Assembly (NCBI GenBank): GCA_023228245.1 | Contig: JALOBN010000024.1 | Span: 1 to 37,816, forward strand | Direction of reading: 5' to 3' | DNA from: Candidatus Pacearchaeota archaeon | GTDB lineage: Archaea > Nanoarchaeota > Nanoarchaeia > Pacearchaeales > GW2011-AR1 | DNA length: 37,816 bases | Shown: one piece after another, positions 1,626 through 30,619 of the stretch | How the letters are laid out: every line of letters starts with the position of its first letter | How positions within the stretch are numbered: the stretch's first letter is position 1 | Notes under the pieces: model-generated | Databases searched by the model: none | What the model was told of the DNA's origin: nothing | Seen by the model: only the letters and a program-made list of their open reading frames with translations | Translations under genes and position numbers: made by a program

Positions 1626-2006
1626 GTGTGCTCATATAATTGCGGGCAGCCGAGCATAGCAATTCCACCAATGGCAGATGATTTACCCATGCGCATGTGT
1701 GTTACGGGTAATCGAATCTTAACCAAAGGCCCCGGCGACTTTCTCCATGCCGCGATTCTCTTTTGGACGAAAGAGGCACCACAACGCGGCTGCGGATGCG
1801 ATGACCTGATAGCGAAGATGAACCAATGGGGGTCGGCTTGCCGTGGCCATCTTGACGAGATCGCCGACCACATGATCGAACAAGCGAAAGAGCGGGGATG
1901 GAAGCTGGCGGGAATGCCGGGAGCGGCGACCGTGTGCCGGCTGATGGTGTTGCGAGCAGTTAGGCAGGCCGAGCGAGCTATCGCGTCTCAATCACGTGGC
2001 TTGTGA
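1626..2006 (+). CDS. Cys-rich phage protein of a conserved unknown family
   Basis: I place the start at GTG 1626 (126 aa) because AGGAG lies 5 nt upstream; the in-frame ATG at 1581 would add 15 residues but has no ribosome site. The core reads GPGDFLHAA, then CGCDDLIAKMNQWG, ACRGHLDEIADHM, and a basic helical C-terminus. This order (GPG, Cys-rich segment, Met-Asn-x-x-Gly, Cys, His, helix) is seen in small proteins of many environmental phages of unknown function; Cys/His content suggests metal binding. It ends the plus-strand late block and overlaps the convergent pilin gene by 29 bp at the tails. Confidence 0.65.
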   Translation: MCSYNCGQPSIAIPPMADDLPMRMCVTGNRILTKGPGDFLHAAILFWTKEAPQRGCGCDDLIAKMNQWGSACRGHLDEIADHMIEQAKERGWKLAGMPGAATVCRLMVLRAVRQAERAIASQSRGL

Positions 2007-2823
2007 TGTTGTCGAGATGCGAGTCTGGCTTCGTCACTTGCGGTTGGCCTAGGTCTGTGTTGCTGTACGGGTTGCCATTGAACGCTCCGGTTCCTAGTTC
2101 GATGCCATAAACACCATCTGGCCCCGCCGAGTAGATGAGCGGCACAAGGTGAAACGCAAAGCCGTCCATTCCGCGAGTGTCGAACGGATCATGGTCGGCG
2201 TTCACGTCGCCTGACTGAATCGGCGACCGATAACCCGGTGCCCACCGCAAGAACATGATGGGGCGGCCCCAGCCATCGACGAAGCAAGGCTTGCCATCCA
2301 CCGTTCCGATTTCGTTCTGCGAGAATTGTTCCATCGCCTCGGGACAAGCACGCGAAACGAACAGATATAGGCATTGGGCGCTATCGTGGTCGGCAGTCGG
2401 AGGGTTACTTGCGTAGAGCTTGCGAATGGGCGGCTCGGGAACCGACCACTGGTAGCTGTTGTTTGTGAATGAAAATGGCCCGTTCACAATGTCGCTCTTG
2501 GCGTCCGGCATTTCCATACGCATCAGGTCACGGATCGCGTTGAGTATCCTTCGCTGTTCATCCAACGCCCACGCCTTTGCGTCAATGCCGCATGATGGGC
2601 CAGGCCAAGGCGTCGTTGCGATGGGCACACGCCGCGTGAGATAGCTCTCATACTTGTGCATCACAATCGAATTGAGCTTGGCGATGGTGGCCTTGGTCGC
2701 AGCTTGTGCCGACGCCTCCCGTGCCGCCCGCATCACGCCCAGCCCCAGCGCCGCCATAATGCCGATGATGGCAATAACCACCAGAAGTTCGACTAGAGAG
2801 AATCCGTGTTGTCGTCGTCGCAT
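1978..2823 (-). CDS. GspG-like pseudopilin (type IV pilin-like protein)
   Basis: A 281-aa protein from ATG 2823, which has AGGAAAG about 6 nt upstream. The N-terminus MRRRQHGFSLVELLVV is a prepilin peptidase site: basic leader, cleavage after Gly7, Phe8 at +1 and the conserved Glu at +5 (Glu12), then a hydrophobic helix to about residue 30. The C-terminal half has the GspG pattern DGWGRPIMFLRWAPG followed by YSAGPDGVYGI (family form: DPWG...SxGxDG). GspG is the major pseudopilin of type II secretion. In this phage it lies last in the minus-strand operon, so it was probably taken from a host. Possible roles are hijacking or blocking the host pilus or secretion machine; this is inference. Confidence 0.85.
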   Translation of the reverse strand: MRRRQHGFSLVELLVVIAIIGIMAALGLGVMRAAREASAQAATKATIAKLNSIVMHKYESYLTRRVPIATTPWPGPSCGIDAKAWALDEQRRILNAIRDLMRMEMPDAKSDIVNGPFSFTNNSYQWSVPEPPIRKLYASNPPTADHDSAQCLYLFVSRACPEAMEQFSQNEIGTVDGKPCFVDGWGRPIMFLRWAPGYRSPIQSGDVNADHDPFDTRGMDGFAFHLVPLIYSAGPDGVYGIELGTGAFNGNPYSNTDLGQPQVTKPDSHLDNITSHVIETR

Positions 2824-2999
2824 GACAGCTTTCCTTTCACGTACCGAATGATGGCCACGCTGATACCCGTGGCCGCGATTGCGATGGTAATGGCCTGAGG
2901 GACGCCGCTGTTCAACTCGTCGAGCGACATCCCCGGCAAGAACATAACGGCCCCGAGGAACAGCAGCGAACCGCAAATGCAAAGCTCGGGCAGCTTCAT
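2793..2999 (-). CDS. Small membrane protein, two predicted TM segments
   Basis: A 68-aa protein. Hydrophobic stretches at about residues 7-24 (CGSLLFLGAVMFLPG) and 33-52 (VPQAITIAIAATGISVAII) suggest two membrane helices, followed by a polar acidic tail. It overlaps the pseudopilin gene by 31 bp and its start overlaps the upstream gene's stop by 4 bp, so the three are coupled. The length and topology resemble a holin or a pilin-assembly partner, but nothing in the sequence decides between these. Confidence 0.6.
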   Translation of the reverse strand: MKLPELCICGSLLFLGAVMFLPGMSLDELNSGVPQAITIAIAATGISVAIIRYVKGKLSCDDDNTDSL

Positions 3000-3229
3000 G
3001 GGGTGACTCCTGTTGGAAAAAGGGTATCAATTGGTTCGCCTGATGATGTTTGCAGGCTGTCGCGTTCCGCTTCCATCGAAGCCAGCGATTCCCGCAACCC
3101 GGCGTTCTCTTCACCCAAATTGTGAAGTGCCTTTGCCTGTCGCATCGTCCGTGCAACCAGGTCGTCGATTGCGCCTTGCGGGTCGTCTTGGCGTCTCCGG
3201 TCGAATTGATGAAAGTCGTCGGTAGGCAT
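2996..3229 (-). CDS. Small coiled-coil protein, unknown function
   Basis: A 77-aa hydrophilic protein. A heptad-like stretch runs from about residue 20 to 60 (LHNLGEENAGLRESLASMEAERDSL), typical of a short coiled coil. There is no recognisable domain and no good ribosome site before the ATG. It sits upstream of the two-TM protein with a 4-bp overlap. It may be a scaffold or partner of the membrane proteins downstream. Confidence 0.5.
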   Translation of the reverse strand: MPTDDFHQFDRRRQDDPQGAIDDLVARTMRQAKALHNLGEENAGLRESLASMEAERDSLQTSSGEPIDTLFPTGVTP

Positions 3230-6713: not shown

Positions 6714-7021
6714 GGGCTAAATCGAAAGATTTACAAAATAGTTACCAGCGGGGGGGTATCGGAAACGCCAGGCTATCAGTTTGAGCGCAATTGATAGCAA
6801 ATTGAGCGCCGCGTCTTTTAGCGAAGGTGCCTTTCTTTTGCGCCTATCGGTAATACGAAACGCCGAATCGTAATACGCAAGCCGCAAGTCCCGTTCACAC
6901 CAAAACATGCGGCGACTATCGGCAACGCGGCTTTCCGTCTTTACGCCTAATCCGCCTGACATTTATCCTCCCCGCGCCGGATTCTGCGGATATTACGACA
7001 AAGTTTTTCGTAATACCGGAG
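6714..7021. other. Non-coding region with GTAATAC repeats, possible integrase arm sites
   Basis: No gene is supported here. GTAATACG occurs at 6850-6857 and again exactly 20 bp later at 6870-6877. An inverted copy (TATTACG) is at 6991-6997 and a further direct copy GTAATAC at 7010-7016. The last two form an 8-bp stem, TATTACGA/TCGTAATA. Short repeats beside the core of an attachment site are typical of integrase arm-binding sites. Confidence 0.4.
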
Positions 7022-7078
7022 TAGGTTCAGGACCTAGTTCCCGTCAAGGGAGTGCAGGTTCAAGTCCTGTCTTCGGCA
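7022..7078 (+). other. tRNA-Leu(CAG) 3' half: phage attachment core (attP or att)
   Basis: Reads as the 3' half of a leucine tRNA: anticodon loop TTCAGGA (anticodon CAG) with stem TAGG/CCTA, a long variable arm (TTCCC-GTCA-AGGGA), T-arm GCAGG-TTCAAGT-CCTGT, and acceptor strand CTTCGGC plus A. The 5' half is missing, and the base before the stem (G7021) cannot pair, so homology starts at about 7022. CCA is not encoded. A half-tRNA beside the integrase is the classic attP arrangement: on integration it rebuilds the host tRNA gene. Confidence 0.85.
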
Positions 7079-7262: not shown

Positions 7263-7472
7263 GCTCGGCGAAGCGACCTTGAAACGTCGCCACCCGAGCG
7301 AAACGCCCTCCGATTCTGATCGTGAGGGAGACATCACATCCGCGGGTTGTGCGGATTTCACCTCTAGTATGAACTAGAGCGGGCTGGGACGCATTTCTGA
7401 TGGATCGCCTTTGCAAAAATGCGTGGTTTCTACTGGCTGACCGTAGAAACGCTGTCTACCATCGGGGTAGAC
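7263..7472 (+). ncRNA. Seven consecutive hairpins in the integrase leader
   Basis: Seven stems in 210 nt, perfect apart from one bulged base in (2): (1) GCTCGG 7263-7268/CCGAGC 7294-7299 with inner GCGAC/GTCGC; (2) CCCTCCGAT 7306-7314 pairing to 7319-7328 with one bulge; (3) ATCCGC 7338-7343/GCGGAT 7351-7356; (4) CTCTAGT 7362-7368/ACTAGAG 7373-7379; (5) ACGCATTT 7389-7396/AAATGCGT 7417-7424; (6) GTTTCTAC 7426-7433/GTAGAAAC 7443-7450; (7) GTCTACC 7454-7460/GGTAGAC 7466-7472. Such a run is not expected by chance. It could be a regulatory leader or a free RNA. Confidence 0.6.
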
Positions 7473-8878: not shown

Positions 8879-9153
8879 CTCCCTAACGGGAGCTTGGACG
8901 GCCCAGTGCCGTCAGTGCGGCGGCGACAAGAGACAATCTTGCACCACGTTGCATACGGGCTTGTGGTCAGCCTCTTCAAAAGCACCGTCATGGAGGTCAA
9001 TGGCCGTGAGAGACGGCCCGCCGCATTTTCTTCCCTGCGTTCCACGTCTTCACAACGAGGTGTGCATGCGCAACGTAACTGAAACACCGAAAGGTGACGG
9101 CCGACTGCACGGCCGAACGGCGAGAAGTACCGCGAAGTACGGCAACGCTCGCC
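8879..9153 (+). ncRNA. Candidate structured RNA ahead of the Cas12-like gene
   Basis: Perfect hairpins are scattered over 275 nt: CTCCC-TAAC-GGGAG (8879-8892), GACGGC/GCCGTC (8897-8913), GGCCGT/ACGGCC (9002-9018), CACC-GAAA-GGTG (9085-9096, a GNRA loop), GGCCG/CGGCC (9099-9114), and GGCGAG/CTCGCC (9119-9153). The frame of the next gene is open here but looks non-coding. Cas12 systems can use tracrRNA-like or scoutRNA molecules near the cas gene; I saw no convincing anti-repeat, so that role is only a candidate. Confidence 0.45.
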
Positions 9154-9179
9154 GACACCCCGAGGGAGTCCCCGTCAGC

Positions 9180-10469
9180 ATGGATCAAACTGTGCTGGCG
9201 GGGAAACCCGCTAAGAAATTGCTGACGGTCTGCCGATGTCAAATCATCGACATGCCGAAGGAATTGCGGTGCAAGTTCTTTGAGATCGGGCGGATGGTGC
9301 AGGAAGCGACTAATCTGTTTTGGATGAGATGGATCGCCGATGCGATGTCAAGGAACAAACATACTGACTTGCGAATATTTTTGGAGTTGTATGCGCGATG
9401 GAAGACCGGCTGCAAGCAAGGCGACAAACCAAAACTTGAGTTTAACGCGATTGACGCCGAGTTTGTGCGCAACGCATCGCAGTGGTGCGCTGAAGCATAT
9501 CCATATTTGCATTCGCGTTGTCGCGCTTTACTGCTGAATAGCGCTGCAAAACGCCTCATGCAACTACCAAGCCATACGAGGTCGTCTCTGAAACTCTGGC
9601 AGGCCGTGCTGCTAGGCGCGGAACGCCCGTGCTGCTCGGACGAAAGTTTGCCGATCCCGTTCGACGGACAGAACGGAACCCTGACCGGAGACGAATCGTC
9701 GATCACGTTGACGGTTCGCGTAGATCGCTTTGAGGTAACTGGCAAGATCAACGGCGCGTCAACTCCTGATTCGATGCGCCTTGAGCTACCGTGTAACGAT
9801 AAGTTCCGTCGGCTCTTACTTGAGGCCGTGCGCGAACAACGAAAATGGGCGGGTAGTCAAATCGTATACCAAACTTCGCGGCGGCGCTGGTACGCGATGA
9901 TCGCCGTGGAGTTAGATGCGAACCCAGCCCTACCAACAAGTCCGACCAAATCCGCTATGCTCTCCGCTCCGAAGGAGAAATGTTGTTGGCGGCTTCGCTT
10001 TAATGACGGAAGCACAGTGGAAATAGGTTCCGGGAGGCGAATTGAACACTTGCGTCGTCGTCTGGCGACGGAAAAGGCGGTTCGTCGTGCCGATCCATTT
10101 CAAGCGCCAAGTTGTTGCGGGCACGGGCGCAAACGCCTATTGCGCGGAATGAGACGTCTGACGGGTCGCTGGGGTCGCGTGACGAAGACGCTGAATCAGC
10201 AGGCGGTCGCGCGGATCGTGAAAGAATTGGTGAGCCATAAGTGCGATGCCCTCGACTACGTGTTAGCCGGCAGCGATTGCCTACTAAACAGCGTTGGTAA
10301 GGAATTTGGTCCGACATGGCCTCTGTATCAGATTCGAGAAAATCTGACGCGAAAGTGTGCAGAACAGGGGATCGTATTGCGAATTTTTGAGAATGAAAGC
10401 GATGTAAGCGTTGCTACCGATTGCAGTTCGGATGTTTGCGATGTATCGATTGGCGAAATCGCGGGGTGA
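9180..10469 (+). CDS. Compact Cas12/TnpB-like protein with degraded RuvC domain
   Basis: A 429-aa protein, like TnpB and Cas12f/m in length. Residues 15-52 (LLTVCRCQIIDMPKELR...EATNLFW) match the N-terminal segment of OrfB/TnpB. SSITLTVRVDRFEVTGKI and RKWAGSQIVYQTSRRRWYAMIAVEL (173-244) match the WED part, ending in the usual RRWY signature. Where RuvC-I should have GxDxG (about 262-277) it has KEKCCWRLRFNDG, with no Asp at the expected place. The RuvC-II Glu is Ala363 (YVLAGSD), and the protein stops after a Cys pair (CSSDVC), before RuvC-III. The stop codon lies in the first CRISPR repeat. Start 9180 has GAGGGAG upstream; ATG 9066 and 8949 are alternatives. It probably binds DNA through an RNA guide without cutting it. 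Confidence 0.7.
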   Translation: MDQTVLAGKPAKKLLTVCRCQIIDMPKELRCKFFEIGRMVQEATNLFWMRWIADAMSRNKHTDLRIFLELYARWKTGCKQGDKPKLEFNAIDAEFVRNASQWCAEAYPYLHSRCRALLLNSAAKRLMQLPSHTRSSLKLWQAVLLGAERPCCSDESLPIPFDGQNGTLTGDESSITLTVRVDRFEVTGKINGASTPDSMRLELPCNDKFRRLLLEAVREQRKWAGSQIVYQTSRRRWYAMIAVELDANPALPTSPTKSAMLSAPKEKCCWRLRFNDGSTVEIGSGRRIEHLRRRLATEKAVRRADPFQAPSCCGHGRKRLLRGMRRLTGRWGRVTKTLNQQAVARIVKELVSHKCDALDYVLAGSDCLLNSVGKEFGPTWPLYQIRENLTRKCAEQGIVLRIFENESDVSVATDCSSDVCDVSIGEIAG

Positions 10470-10731
10470 TGCAGGGGTAACCGATGCCGTGCCACACGCT
10501 TACCGGATGTATCGATTGGCGAAATCGCGGGGTGATGCAGGTAGCATGTCCCCACTCATCGCTCACAGACTCGATGTATCGATTGGCGAAATCGCGGGGT
10601 GATGCAGGTGTTGCCGTTACCGGCGACATCGACACTACGATGTATCGATTGGCGAAATCGCGGGGTGATGCAGGTTCCAGCGTGATGCCGATGCAATCGG
10701 TGTCGATGTATCGATTGGCAAAATCGCGGGG
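10440..10731 (+). CRISPR. Mini CRISPR array, 4 spacers
   Basis: Four identical 36-nt repeats start at 10440, 10506, 10573 and 10639. A fifth at 10705 keeps 27 nt with one change (G to A) and then degenerates. The repeat begins GATGTATCGATTGGCG and ends GGGGTGATGCAGG. Inside, CGATT-GGCGA-AATCG is a perfect 5-bp hairpin. Spacers: 10476-10505 (30), 10542-10572 (31), 10609-10638 (30), 10675-10704 (30), all different. The terminal degenerate repeat marks the distal end, so the array reads in the same direction as the cas-like gene. Repeat and spacer sizes suit type V. No Cas1/Cas2 is present. Confidence 0.88.
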
Positions 10732-10847
10732 ACAGTACGGCCGAAAGGCTGGATCGCCGGAACGGCAGGGCAGCGGACCTTGGCCTAGTACGGCGACCCT
10801 GTTGCGAGCAATGCGCACCCGCTCCACCAAACGATTATGAGGTTGTC
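10732..10847. other. Non-coding segment after the array
   Basis: No gene is supported. It has GGCC-GAAA-GGCT at 10738-10749 (GNRA loop), and AGTACGGC occurs twice (about 10733 and 10790); the same word occurs at 9136 in the structured leader. It may carry array terminator or scaffold RNA elements. Confidence 0.35.
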
Positions 10848-11217: not shown

Positions 11218-11297
11218 TGGCCACAAAGGAAGAGCGCGAAGCTGCAGAGAAGAGGCAGAGAAGAGGCTTGCTGCCGACGTGGGCATTGAAGAAGTAG
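11217..11297 (+). CDS. Tiny basic peptide
   Basis: A 26-aa frame (MATKEEREAAEKRQRRGLLP...), whose ATG overlaps the preceding stop (TGATG). Basic, helical. It may be a real small gene or chance coding; the coupling is the only support. Confidence 0.3.
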   Translation: MATKEEREAAEKRQRRGLLPTWALKK

Positions 11298-11332
11298 GAC
11301 GCCGACGCAAGACGCCGAGGCGAAGGAGCGGC

Positions 11333-11392
11333 ATGAGCCGCATAACCAGGACGTATAACAACACGCCGCTGCGGTGGAACCAACGCGGCTAA
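11333..11392 (+). CDS. Tiny peptide
   Basis: A 19-aa frame (MSRITRTYNNTPLRWNQRG) with GGAG before the ATG. Too short to judge; offered because it fills an otherwise empty gap and has a ribosome site. Confidence 0.3.
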   Translation: MSRITRTYNNTPLRWNQRG

Positions 11393-11949: not shown

Positions 11950-12183
11950 ATGCTTTGCTTATCGAGACGCGAGGGAGAGAAGGTAGTTATCGATGGCCCA
12001 TGTACGATCACGGTCTGCGAGATTCGCGGCGGCAAGGCCGTTAGGCTTGGGATCGATGCTGGCAAATCTGTCAGAATCATCCGCCCGGACGCCAAGGATA
12101 AGTCGCCACGCTACATCGGCGACGCTTCACATTACGCCGAGGCGGAACTAATGCAATACGAGCGTGGCAGAGTAGGAATCTAA
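11950..12183 (+). CDS. csrA: CsrA-like RNA-binding regulator
   Basis: A 77-aa protein. MLCLSRREGEKVVIDGPCTITVCEIRGGKAVRLGIDAGKSVRIIRPDA matches the CsrA/RsmA beta-fold: MLVLSRKxGE at the start, I-x-I-x-V-x-E-I-x-G, then VRLGIxAxKxVxIxR. The residue Arg44 of E. coli CsrA corresponds to R in IIRP. CsrA binds GGA motifs in mRNA leaders and controls translation. Phage copies are known in some groups. Here it may change host or phage mRNA use. A C-terminal extension of about 25 residues is unusual. Confidence 0.85.
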   Translation: MLCLSRREGEKVVIDGPCTITVCEIRGGKAVRLGIDAGKSVRIIRPDAKDKSPRYIGDASHYAEAELMQYERGRVGI

Positions 12184-12198
12184 CGCTAGGAGGGTGCT

Positions 12199-12846
12199 AT
12201 GGGAACTGAACTATCTCCGCTGTCGAACGTCGAGGCCAGCGACTTGGCGCGATGCGAGAAGACGATTGAAAAGGGAATCGGAACGTTTCAAGCCACTGGA
12301 CACGCATTGATCGAGGTGCGGGACAAAAAGCTCTTCCGCCGCGACTATGCGACATTTCCAGAATACCTCGCTCAGCGCTGGCCTCTCATCAGCGGAGGAC
12401 GTGCGCGGCAACTGATAGCTTCGGTCAAAAACACGGAAAGTGTTACAAATGTAACAATTCCAAACGAGGCGGTAGCCCGCGAACTGGGAAAAGTGCCAAA
12501 AGACCGACAACAGGCCGTGGCTGATTGGGCCACAGAGAAGGCTGATGGGAAGCCGCTGACGGCTGCTGCGATCAAGCAAGCCACCGTCGAGGTATTGGAG
12601 GCCGAGCCAGAAGACGAGCCAGAAGACTCCCCCATAGACGCCGACGCCTACGATGGCGATACCGACGTACCGCCGCCGGTAGAGCACGTCAACCGCCCTC
12701 CTAATCCCGTAGCTGACAACAGCACGTCGGCCCTTACGGAGCTTCTTGCCTTTCTCCGCACGCTGGCCAAGCGACATGGCCTGAGCGACATTGGCGTGAT
12801 TTCCCTACTCGACAACGCGATAGCAGCCAAACGAGGTGACACATGA
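12199..12846 (+). CDS. Phage early protein of the 'gestation/plating' helical type, possible DNA-binding
   Basis: A 215-aa protein with TAGGAGGGTGC before the ATG. LARCEKTIEKGIGTFQATGHALIEVRDKKLFRRDYATFPEYLAQRWPLISGGRARQLI is a block known from many phage and plasmid proteins, in which a helical unit precedes a DNA-binding-like part. The middle is acidic (EAEPEDEPEDSPIDADAYDGDTD) and linker-like; the C-terminus is helical. DNA binding or replication/partition support is inferred. Confidence 0.65.
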   Translation: MGTELSPLSNVEASDLARCEKTIEKGIGTFQATGHALIEVRDKKLFRRDYATFPEYLAQRWPLISGGRARQLIASVKNTESVTNVTIPNEAVARELGKVPKDRQQAVADWATEKADGKPLTAAAIKQATVEVLEAEPEDEPEDSPIDADAYDGDTDVPPPVEHVNRPPNPVADNSTSALTELLAFLRTLAKRHGLSDIGVISLLDNAIAAKRGDT

Positions 12847-28652: not shown

Positions 28653-29684
28653 ATGAAACGTCACGGATTCATAAACCTGTACGTCCTAGCCGCCGTTGCG
28701 GTTATCTGCCTAATATGTCTTGCTATCATCGCACGCAATTGGTCCTGCCGCTCTCAGCGTGACCGTGGCCGCAAGCCTCGCCCACCCGCCCAGAAGGAGT
28801 ATGTAGTCGAATCGGCGTCCACTGGTGGCTCCCTCGTTATCAAAGACGGTCGCAAGGGCAAGCGGGTTATCGCCATCAGCCTGTCTGGTATCGCCGCACC
28901 TGCTGCCGGTGAGCCACTTGAGGAAGAGAGCCGAGTATCGCTGGAGAAGTTGGCTGGGGCCAAGGTGCGGCTTGAGAGTGGCCGTAAAATCCTTGGTGCG
29001 ACTGAGGATGGCGACGAAGACGCGAAAGCCATGTTTGCCGCACCTGAGAAGCTTGGTCCAGGTGTAGAGGTGCGGTGTTCCGCGTGTGGTGGTAAGGGGG
29101 AAAACACTTATCCCGACGGAGGTGTTGCAGTAGCGGCCCAAGCCGCGTTTGCGATTTGGATGGATAGCCATATCCCGACTTGCAAAAAGTGCAAGGATGC
29201 AATCTTGAACTCAGAGAAGTCACCACCCGCCAGCAGTTATTGCACGGTGGCTCAAGCAAAATGGAAAGAGATTTGCGACAAAGCAAAGTTGATCAAGAGG
29301 GCACCCCTGACTGACGAGTGTTGGGCGTGTGGTGGTAGCGGCTTGCTAATCGAACACAAGCGAGTGGCCCGCCGGCCGCTGGTGGGCGTCGTTTATGGTC
29401 AGTCTGGAAACTGTCTAAATGAGGCGCAACTACGGGTTGGCTTGGCCAGGACGGTTGGCACGGTCTGTCAAGAATGGGCCGATGCCGAGAAGGAAGCACA
29501 GACCGGCAAGGTTGGAATCTGGGTCGGGTACGTTTCGAAGCCCGTTGCCTCGTCACAATCCTGGAGATGGTGGACGATCATTGGTGGCGTCTGGGGACTG
29601 ATTGGCCTAGTCGCCGGCTACTGCGCGGGGCTTTCGAGGCAGTCGCAAACAAGGGGTGGATTGCCATTGTCTTTATGGCCATAG
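28653..29684 (+). CDS. Membrane-anchored TNase-like protein with DnaJ-type zinc motifs
   Basis: A 343-aa protein. Residues 9-27 (YVLAAVAVICLICLAIIA) are an N-terminal membrane helix, and 308-326 a second one. A thermonuclease-type domain is split: IKDGRKGKRVIAISLSGIAAPAAGEPLEEESRVSLEKLAGAKVRLE at 63-108, and PLVGVVYGQSGNCLNEAQLRVGLART ... EKEAQTGKVGIWVG at 242-292. Between them are CSACGGKG (142-149), CKKC (177-180) and CWACGGSG (223-230), CxxCxGxG motifs like the DnaJ zinc centre. Nuclease activity is not certain, since catalytic Arg/Asp/Glu need alignment. Possibly acts at the cell surface on incoming DNA. Confidence 0.65.
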   Translation: MKRHGFINLYVLAAVAVICLICLAIIARNWSCRSQRDRGRKPRPPAQKEYVVESASTGGSLVIKDGRKGKRVIAISLSGIAAPAAGEPLEEESRVSLEKLAGAKVRLESGRKILGATEDGDEDAKAMFAAPEKLGPGVEVRCSACGGKGENTYPDGGVAVAAQAAFAIWMDSHIPTCKKCKDAILNSEKSPPASSYCTVAQAKWKEICDKAKLIKRAPLTDECWACGGSGLLIEHKRVARRPLVGVVYGQSGNCLNEAQLRVGLARTVGTVCQEWADAEKEAQTGKVGIWVGYVSKPVASSQSWRWWTIIGGVWGLIGLVAGYCAGLSRQSQTRGGLPLSLWP

Positions 29685-30619
29685 CCTGCTGCATTATGGG
29701 TCCGTTCATCTTTTTCGCTCTACGGCAGAAGGTGGCCGTTGTCGCCATAGCCTTGTGTCTCGTTGCCCCTTCTGCCTTTGCCGCCCCGTGTTGCCCCGGT
29801 GGAAATTGCGACAAGCCAACTTGGCAACAGACCGAGCTACCGAAGGCGGCGGTGCCGGACATTCCCATCCCGGAAACTCCTAAGACTGTTGGCCCCGTCT
29901 ACTGGCTCTGGGCATCGAACATTGATGCGATGCTCTGCGCCGAGGCTCAGAAGCACGCCGAATACATGGCCAGCGTTAGAGTTCAGGAACACCAAAATTG
30001 GTCGAGTCGAAAGTCACGTTGCGAGGCTGCCGTTGGGTTGCGATGCGAAGAGATTGTAGCCGAGTCATGGCCCAACCGCTCGTATGCTGGTGACGACGAC
30101 CAGTGGAAACGCGAAGCGTTTGGATCGTGGAAGTTTTCCTCTGGTCATTGGGAAGTGGCCCGCAAGGCTCATACCCGCGTAGGTTGGGGTCGTGCGCGTG
30201 GAGGGAACGGGGTGTGGTACTTTTGTGTGATAGCTGCCGATGGCCAAGAGCGTGGAAAAGTCACCTCTCCACCCGCTGCTCAACAGCCTGCCATCAGTCC
30301 GACCGAGGCTTACATCGTCGCCCGCGTCAATGCCGAACGCCGTGCCCGTGGTCTGCGGGAACTGGTAGTGGATTCCAAGCTGATGGACTTCGCCCGCAAT
30401 CATACACGATGGATGTTCAGGGGCGGAATGGTTCATAGTCGAGGCCCCTACGCAGAAAATATCGCTATGGGTCAGTCGGACGGTGAAGACGTGATGCACA
30501 GTTGGATGAACAGCAGTGGCCATAGGTCGAACATTCTCAATCCAAACCACCGATACATCGGCGCGGCTGGAATGCAGGACGCAAATGGCAGAACGTACTA
30601 CACACAGAACTTTCGGTGA
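29675..30619 (+). CDS. Secreted protein with two CAP (SCP/PR1) domains
   Basis: About 314 aa from ATG 29675 (29567 and 29696 are alternatives; none has an ideal ribosome site). A signal peptide is visible: RQKVAVVAIALCLVAPSAFA, cleaved before APCCPG. A first, divergent CAP-like part (AEAQKHAEYMASVRVQEHQNW...AESW...GHWEVARKAHTRVGWGRA) is followed by a clear CAP domain: VNAERRARGLRELVVDSKLMDFARNHTRWMFRGGMVHSRGPYAENIAMG, then MHSWMNSSGHRSNILNPNHRYIGAA. CAP proteins occur in bacterial and phage secretomes; their bacterial roles are mostly unknown. Confidence 0.7.
   Translation: MAIACCIMGPFIFFALRQKVAVVAIALCLVAPSAFAAPCCPGGNCDKPTWQQTELPKAAVPDIPIPETPKTVGPVYWLWASNIDAMLCAEAQKHAEYMASVRVQEHQNWSSRKSRCEAAVGLRCEEIVAESWPNRSYAGDDDQWKREAFGSWKFSSGHWEVARKAHTRVGWGRARGGNGVWYFCVIAADGQERGKVTSPPAAQQPAISPTEAYIVARVNAERRARGLRELVVDSKLMDFARNHTRWMFRGGMVHSRGPYAENIAMGQSDGEDVMHSWMNSSGHRSNILNPNHRYIGAAGMQDANGRTYYTQNFR

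Follow-up and report, generated by a model that had tools for sequence, protein, structure and literature searches.

Background

Among type V systems of clustered regularly interspaced short palindromic repeats (CRISPR), interference by binding only has been reported for Cas12m (PMC11013384), RNA-guided repression for nuclease-dead TnpB proteins, called TldR (PMC13418256), and several dead type V subtypes are listed in a recent classification (PMC12669027). The principle of silencing by a dead type V effector is already known. Here we analyse a stretch of 37,816 nt from Candidatus Pacearchaeota archaeon (contig JALOBN010000024.1 of assembly GCA_023228245.1, positions 1 to 37,816; hereafter the window), in which a gene for a Cas12f-like protein, predicted to be nuclease-dead, lies between a putative trans-activating CRISPR RNA (tracrRNA) and a CRISPR array, and we compare it with relatives at nine distinct viral loci. 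An earlier description made from the letters of the window, the original prediction, had proposed a guide-directed silencer carried by a phage, and our results point, with modest confidence, to a silencer of this kind that is guided by two RNAs and used against related phages.

Cas12f nucleases work as effector dimers. Compared with them, the present family lacks both catalytic Asp residues as well as the zinc finger and RuvC-III, is phage-borne, has its tracrRNA upstream of the gene and, in most viral relatives, is accompanied by a partner gene; the window protein is 11-16% identical to Cas12f nucleases such as AsCas12f (7wju/8dzj) in structural alignment. A nuclease-deactivated Cas12f of 365 aa in the PDB (9n9c/9n9m), a natural protein that works with a sigma factor, is likewise dead and seems to be without the C-terminal part too, because the match of our family profile ends at its residue 364; it is, however, only distantly related (E 8.8e-17 with that profile), and no paper describing it was found in the literature searched. 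No sigma gene was seen among the genes common to the loci, a result for which no search aimed at sigma factors was made. Cas12m uses a CRISPR RNA (crRNA) only, without tracrRNA, and its solved complexes are crRNA-bound, whereas a tracrRNA was found here. Like the present family, it is a dead effector on mobile elements, and it interferes by binding (PMC11656645; PMC11013384); of these type V-M traits, the dead RuvC is predicted for the window protein as well. TldR proteins are similar in being prophage-borne, RuvC-inactivated and active in RNA-guided repression (PMC13418256), but they derive from TnpB and use a guide-RNA cassette and no CRISPR array, whereas multi-spacer arrays, in the window and at 9/9 viral loci, and a tracrRNA are found here. 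The 'dCas14' of huge phages is a phage effector of Cas14/Cas12f type that was also proposed to repress and not to cut, but it misses one catalytic residue and its noted spacer is directed against a host gene (PMC7162821), whereas here the truncation extends to an entire family and the guides known so far match genes of phages. Finally CasMu-V, described as V-F (PMC11656645), is a type V effector that has lost its RuvC-III and stands with an array in a phage-like mobile element (PMC10910872; PMC11656645), but it has a Mu transposase (PMC10910872) and none was detected here. The Mu transposase families PF09299 and PF02914 matched 0/9 viral records, but the control genomes gave no match either, so that this is no proof of absence; no transposase was found among the window ORFs (open reading frames) scanned (24 by PHROG, 21 by Pfam, effector included) or among the genes common to the loci. 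A truncated phage family with an upstream tracrRNA, a partner gene and guides against sister phages was not found described in the literature searched, many subscription papers and preprints lying outside its coverage.

A probably inactivated effector of the Cas12f lineage

The compact protein of about 429 aa that had been predicted as a member of the Cas12/TnpB superfamily is encoded by an ORF (Table 1). It matches Cas12f models, as do all 63 relatives scanned (out of 100 beyond the window's own clade), and its predicted structure (predicted local distance difference test, pLDDT, 91) has Cas12f proteins as best PDB matches. These profile and structure matches rule out an unrelated protein family. 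Because of them, and because a tracrRNA is present, we assign the protein, as a refinement, to the Cas12f (V-F) lineage and not to Cas12m, Cas12k or TldR.

RuvC residues were scored in 106 family members by alignment to a TnpB-like protein with the full catalytic triad (P0009), leaving out the window protein with an earlier start (P0002) and the fragments P0092, P0098 and P0100. The RuvC-I Asp was found in 0/106 members, the RuvC-II Glu in seven and the RuvC-III Asp in none, its column showing a gap in 65 and another residue in 41. In the window protein, the RuvC-I column is occupied by S262 (a by-eye pairwise match would put the neighbouring Ala there), in line with the Asp loss foreseen, and the RuvC-II column by V361; the loss of this Glu had been foreseen as well, but the residue named, Ala363, is two residues off. 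The last conserved Gly (G397) is followed by 32 residues compared to 64 in P0009, and short tails are the rule in the family, with a median of 27 residues and 98 of the 106 tails at 60 aa or shorter (8 are longer), while CxxC is absent from 105 tails and present in one. The window protein is therefore predicted to end before the zinc finger and RuvC-III, in agreement with the early stop originally noticed.

The loss of catalytic residues is common to members that are only 20-48% identical to the window protein, which argues against chance, and judged by its sequence the protein is nuclease-dead. A pseudogene or frameshifted nuclease was ruled out, as the losses recur over the 106 members and no stop interrupts the matched stretch in any of the nine viral records, of which one is partial. 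Of the features of type V-F, the Cas12f fold with family profile and the tracrRNA with anti-repeat are present, and the intact Asp-Glu-Asp triad and the C-terminal zinc finger with RuvC-III are missing; because these two defining features fail, the protein is filed as an inactivated V-F derivative and not as Cas12f.

The viral relatives come from scans of IMG/VR, which gave 11 loci and one more in a second scan, nine being distinct after removal of duplicates (L003, L005, L011-L024 and L026 are excluded from all locus counts). No relatives were found in INPHARED phages, PLSDB plasmids or GTDB genome contigs, the contig scans detecting only loci with the chosen peptide patterns, and none among viruses with peptide patterns of the window's own clade, where again only pattern-bearing loci are detectable.

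Guide RNAs of the window and its relatives

The array follows the gene directly, its first repeat overlapping the last 30 nt of the effector ORF. The perfect repeats announced in the original prediction are four in number, 36 nt each, and the fifth is degenerate. Chance repeats as an explanation were rejected on the repeats of the window and on the arrays at the viral loci, where a repeat array stands beside the gene in 9/9 cases, with 25 repeats in L007, 15-16 in L025, 13 in L009, at least 11 in L010, 6 in L001, 4 in L006, 3-4 in L008, only 2 full ones in L004, and 16 in L002, on two sides of the gene. By eye, it is the 3' repeat that is degenerate in the window and in L001, L002, L009 and L025. 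The window repeat folds well (-12.5 kcal/mol, z -2.70), but as most repeats of the other loci fold weakly, and that of L004 not at all, the family as a whole is not marked by a repeat hairpin. No match to cas1 or cas2 was obtained when 10 other window ORFs were compared with PADLOC.

In seven loci, the region upstream of the gene has in common a hairpin, then a long stem GGYGAGAA...CUCRCC and finally a short tail that complements the repeat of its own locus; the core of this RNA resembles the published Un1Cas12f1 tracrRNA. Covariance model R1 scores the window RNA at 53.8 bits (E 7.7e-14, the window being in the training set) and recovers the same RNA in L002, which was absent from that set (E 4e-18), and model R2, built without the window, has its sole window match at 9087-9169 (E 9.3e-5; these E-values are rough). 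Both sides change in compensation in 8/16 predicted pairs over the 7 loci, and 93.5% of the cells of the alignment pair, a value reached by 0/500 shuffles and compared to 33-43% for slid structures. Window positions 9078-9182 have a fold z of -2.93; the z-scores of the 230-nt upstream regions are mostly unremarkable. When the anti-repeat tails of 8 loci were assigned to repeats, the pairing sum of the true assignment beat the other 40319 of 40320, and in 7/8 loci the pairing is confined to repeat positions 19-31, the exception being L004 (13-19). For the window taken alone the signal is not significant: its own anti-repeat scores 20 and foreign repeats reach up to 21, and an automatic scan (700 nt upstream, 1200 nt downstream) picked another site, with 20/60 shuffled repeats equally good, so that the anti-repeat is supported by its conserved position across loci only. 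Likewise, RNAduplex ranked other matches of the repeat over the window as stronger than the anti-repeat, and pairing energy alone is therefore no evidence. Altogether a tracrRNA with anti-repeat was found in 8/10 loci (window and 7 viral); L001 and L010, in which the model matched nothing, both have contigs that stop short of the region upstream of the array or gene. At its thresholds, Rfam gave no match for the tracrRNA of the window, L006, L008 or L025.

Table 1. Coordinates of the features of the locus within the window
Feature	Position	Strand	Basis or remark
Tyrosine recombinase (phage integrase)	7494..8372	+	PHROG phrog_1 integrase, E 6.9e-19; homologue in viral record G004
tracrRNA-like RNA (putative)	9086..9170	+	Hairpin, then long stem GGCGAGAA...CUCGCC, then anti-repeat
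Anti-repeat CACCCCG (putative)	9156..9162	+	Complementary to repeat positions 23-29
C-terminally truncated Cas12f-like protein, 429 aa, predicted nuclease-dead	9180..10469	+	ORF, profile, structure model, alignment
CRISPR array, 36-nt repeats	10440..10740	+	Repeat starts 10440, 10506, 10573, 10639 (identical) and 10705 (degenerate, 7 mismatches)
Spacer 1, 30 nt	10476..10505	+	No target found
Spacer 2, 31 nt	10542..10572	+	No target found
Spacer 3, 30 nt	10609..10638	+	Chance-level matches only, best E 0.2
Spacer 4, 30 nt	10675..10704	+	Chance-level matches only, best E 0.6

In L004, just past the partner gene (12045-12223), a 12-nt piece of the repeat 3' end (about AGGGAATGCGGG) occurs seven times, alternating with unique stretches of ~16 nt at a period of 26-29 nt, perhaps an array trimmed to crRNA handle and short guide, and single copies of the piece lie near 7277, 8923, 8960 and 11264. 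In L025 (11284-12237), spacers 2 and 3 equal spacers 5 and 6, and in L006 (11275-11508) spacers 2 and 3 are identical, which suggests array duplication and not fresh acquisition. In L002, 142 bases are identical at 9581-9722 and 11235-11376; the second copy consists of the last 104 nt of the gene with the start of the downstream array and the first precedes the upstream array, as if the 3' end of the gene served as array leader and had been duplicated along with the array.

Targets of the spacers

We compared 89 spacers (86 distinct) with 371 kb of viral and window DNA; this set includes L008_3 and L004_1, which were entered manually, and leaves out an irregular interval of 107 nt at the 5' end of the L007 array. 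At the DNA level, L007 spacers 7 (30/35) and 9 (28/35) are clear of three shuffles (maximum 0.75), and at the peptide level they score 58 and 52, the maxima of five shuffles being 45-51. Together with L007 spacer 6, they match in frame the tape-measure gene of the same phage (L033:11175-12209; PHROG tape measure, E 7e-35), and the peptides of these three spacers, out of 23 in that phage, are identical to the tape-measure protein over 11, 11 and 9 residues. All DNA differences between the spacers and the phage's own gene are synonymous (19/19), and spacers 6 and 9 represent different alleles of the same codons. As the peptides are identical while the DNA differs synonymously throughout, the simplest reading is that the spacers originated in related phages. 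The first mismatch to self is at position 3 in spacers 7 and 6 and at position 8 in spacer 9, and three contigs of this phage type have the array in common and agree in the self sequence at the two sites read.

Proposed function and alternatives

A guide-directed binder, as originally predicted, remains the best explanation for a protein that appears dead and has its own array and a putative tracrRNA. Whether host genes or competitors are its targets had been left open; in the viral and window DNA searched, evidence exists for rival phages alone, and it comes from one relative (G005, through the L007 spacers), not from the window. We therefore favour, as somewhat the better-supported possibility, a silencer that is carried by phages, guided by two RNAs and directed at related phages; phages with related copies likely employ the effector to silence, and not to cut, genes of their rivals. 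Spacers would be taken from related phages, tracrRNA and crRNA would be transcribed and processed, and the protein would bind the tracrRNA-crRNA duplex before finding the protospacer, where the bound complex may form a roadblock to transcription that silences a late gene of the rival. Alternatively, the complex might sit on the transcript, since 3/3 identified guides are antisense to the tape-measure mRNA. The likely outcome would be that competing related phages are excluded while the carrier is spared through the synonymous differences. In its full form this would be an undescribed phage weapon, in which a truncated, tracrRNA-guided dead Cas12f and a dedicated coiled-coil partner, present in many phages, use a guide library against structural genes of sister phages to shut their expression at co-infection, the carrier escaping via synonymous codons; we put this forward tentatively, as falling a little short of an even chance.

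Several observations weigh against this interpretation. Only 3/86 distinct spacers have a target, all in one array, the window's four spacers are without any match above chance, and no protospacer adjacent motif could be derived. L007 spacer 6 (22/29 = 0.759) is barely above the DNA shuffles (0.75) and its peptide score of 44, with 9/9 residues identical, is below the shuffle maxima, while L009_10 (0.774) and L001_5 (0.767), which have no coding match, likewise lie just above the DNA shuffles. The figure of 5e-12 assumes that overlapping sites are independent and was calculated with the match already known. Two degenerate IMG/VR scans for the spacer peptides returned only three contigs, with the same array, and no external phage with an exact protospacer. 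Self-sparing is uncertain because the first self mismatch of spacer 9 lies outside the seed of 6 nt reported for TldR (PMC13418256). For the tracrRNA, one of five covariation measures (further pair types) was reached by 44/500 shuffles. Finally, neither the window nor L001, the contig of which begins within the array, yielded the partner gene, and because of this absence the window and its relatives may differ.

An RNA-guided repressor of host genes, acting in TldR-like lysogenic control or host shut-off with phage-directed spacers as a side line, is unlikely, though first among the alternatives. It can invoke the phage TldR that regulate flagellin (PMC13418256) and the huge-phage Cas14 that misses one catalytic residue and has a spacer against host glycyl-tRNA synthetase (PMC7162821), and 83 of the 86 distinct spacers are without target in the DNA compared; yet the only targets identified are phage tape-measure homologues, and multi-spacer arrays that differ between loci resemble a record of varied targets and not one fixed host gene.

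The partner gene, the only other gene common to most loci, encodes 162-205 aa and adjoins the array in 8/9 viral loci (in L007 it stands between gene and array). Its model shows a confident N-terminal helical domain and a helix of 55 residues (pLDDT 85.8), a predicted coiled coil; in Pfam and PHROGs it has only coiled-coil-like matches, and no PDB fold was matched at E < 0.001. Its conservation beside the array and its helical build would suit a role in targeting some other enzyme, of the kind seen in CRISPR transposons, with the dead complex bringing a partner (the coiled-coil protein, a transposase, a polymerase or a nuclease subunit) to the target, and CasMu-V, which works with a Mu transposase (PMC10910872), is a close precedent. 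We hold this to be slightly less probable still, as the partner has no enzyme-like family or fold match and the window lacks it, the common genes include no transposase (the Mu families being silent in viral records and controls alike), and spacers matching a tape-measure gene are unlike homing guides. It is improbable that the ribonucleoprotein acts on RNA, its antisense guides binding late phage transcripts to block translation or to recruit a host RNase: the common strand of the identified guides and the lack of a remaining DNA-cutting site fit this, but three guides are few, one common strand arises by chance in 1 of 4 cases, and the closest solved relatives include DNA-bound complexes.

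If true, silencing of rival phages by this family would be a native form of CRISPR interference that phages direct at other phages; it would involve no cutting, and genes for spacer acquisition were not seen in the vicinity. One could then test how phages gain guides, how the carrier avoids silencing itself and whether one silenced late gene suffices for superinfection exclusion. An effector of about 420 aa without nuclease part would moreover provide a small guided binder ready for use, and the partner would add a protein family without known fold match.

Genomic context

Besides the integrase (Table 1), the window encodes exonuclease VIII, RecT, a replication initiator, DnaB and two methyltransferases, and because of these neighbours the setting is a phage or an integrative phage-like element, as had been recognised in the original prediction. 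The integrase marks the element as integrative and is context, not part of the effector. At 7015-7078, 0.4 kb upstream of it, lies a tRNA-like stretch (Rfam 25 bits, below gathering; no tRNA by ARAGORN) that is a possible attachment site. A type IV pilin-like N-methylation motif (PF07963, E 1.9e-9) marks the protein encoded at 1978-3156 on the minus strand, which possibly belongs to host DNA left of an attachment site. A CsrA-like regulator is encoded at 11950-12183, 1.5 kb downstream of the effector gene; csrA-associated TldR loci have been described (PMC13418256), and viral record G004 has homologues of both this regulator and the integrase several kb from its Cas gene. The protein encoded at 29474-30619 of the window carries a CAP (cysteine-rich secretory protein) domain at its C-terminus (Pfam, E 2e-20), which is unusual in a phage-like segment.
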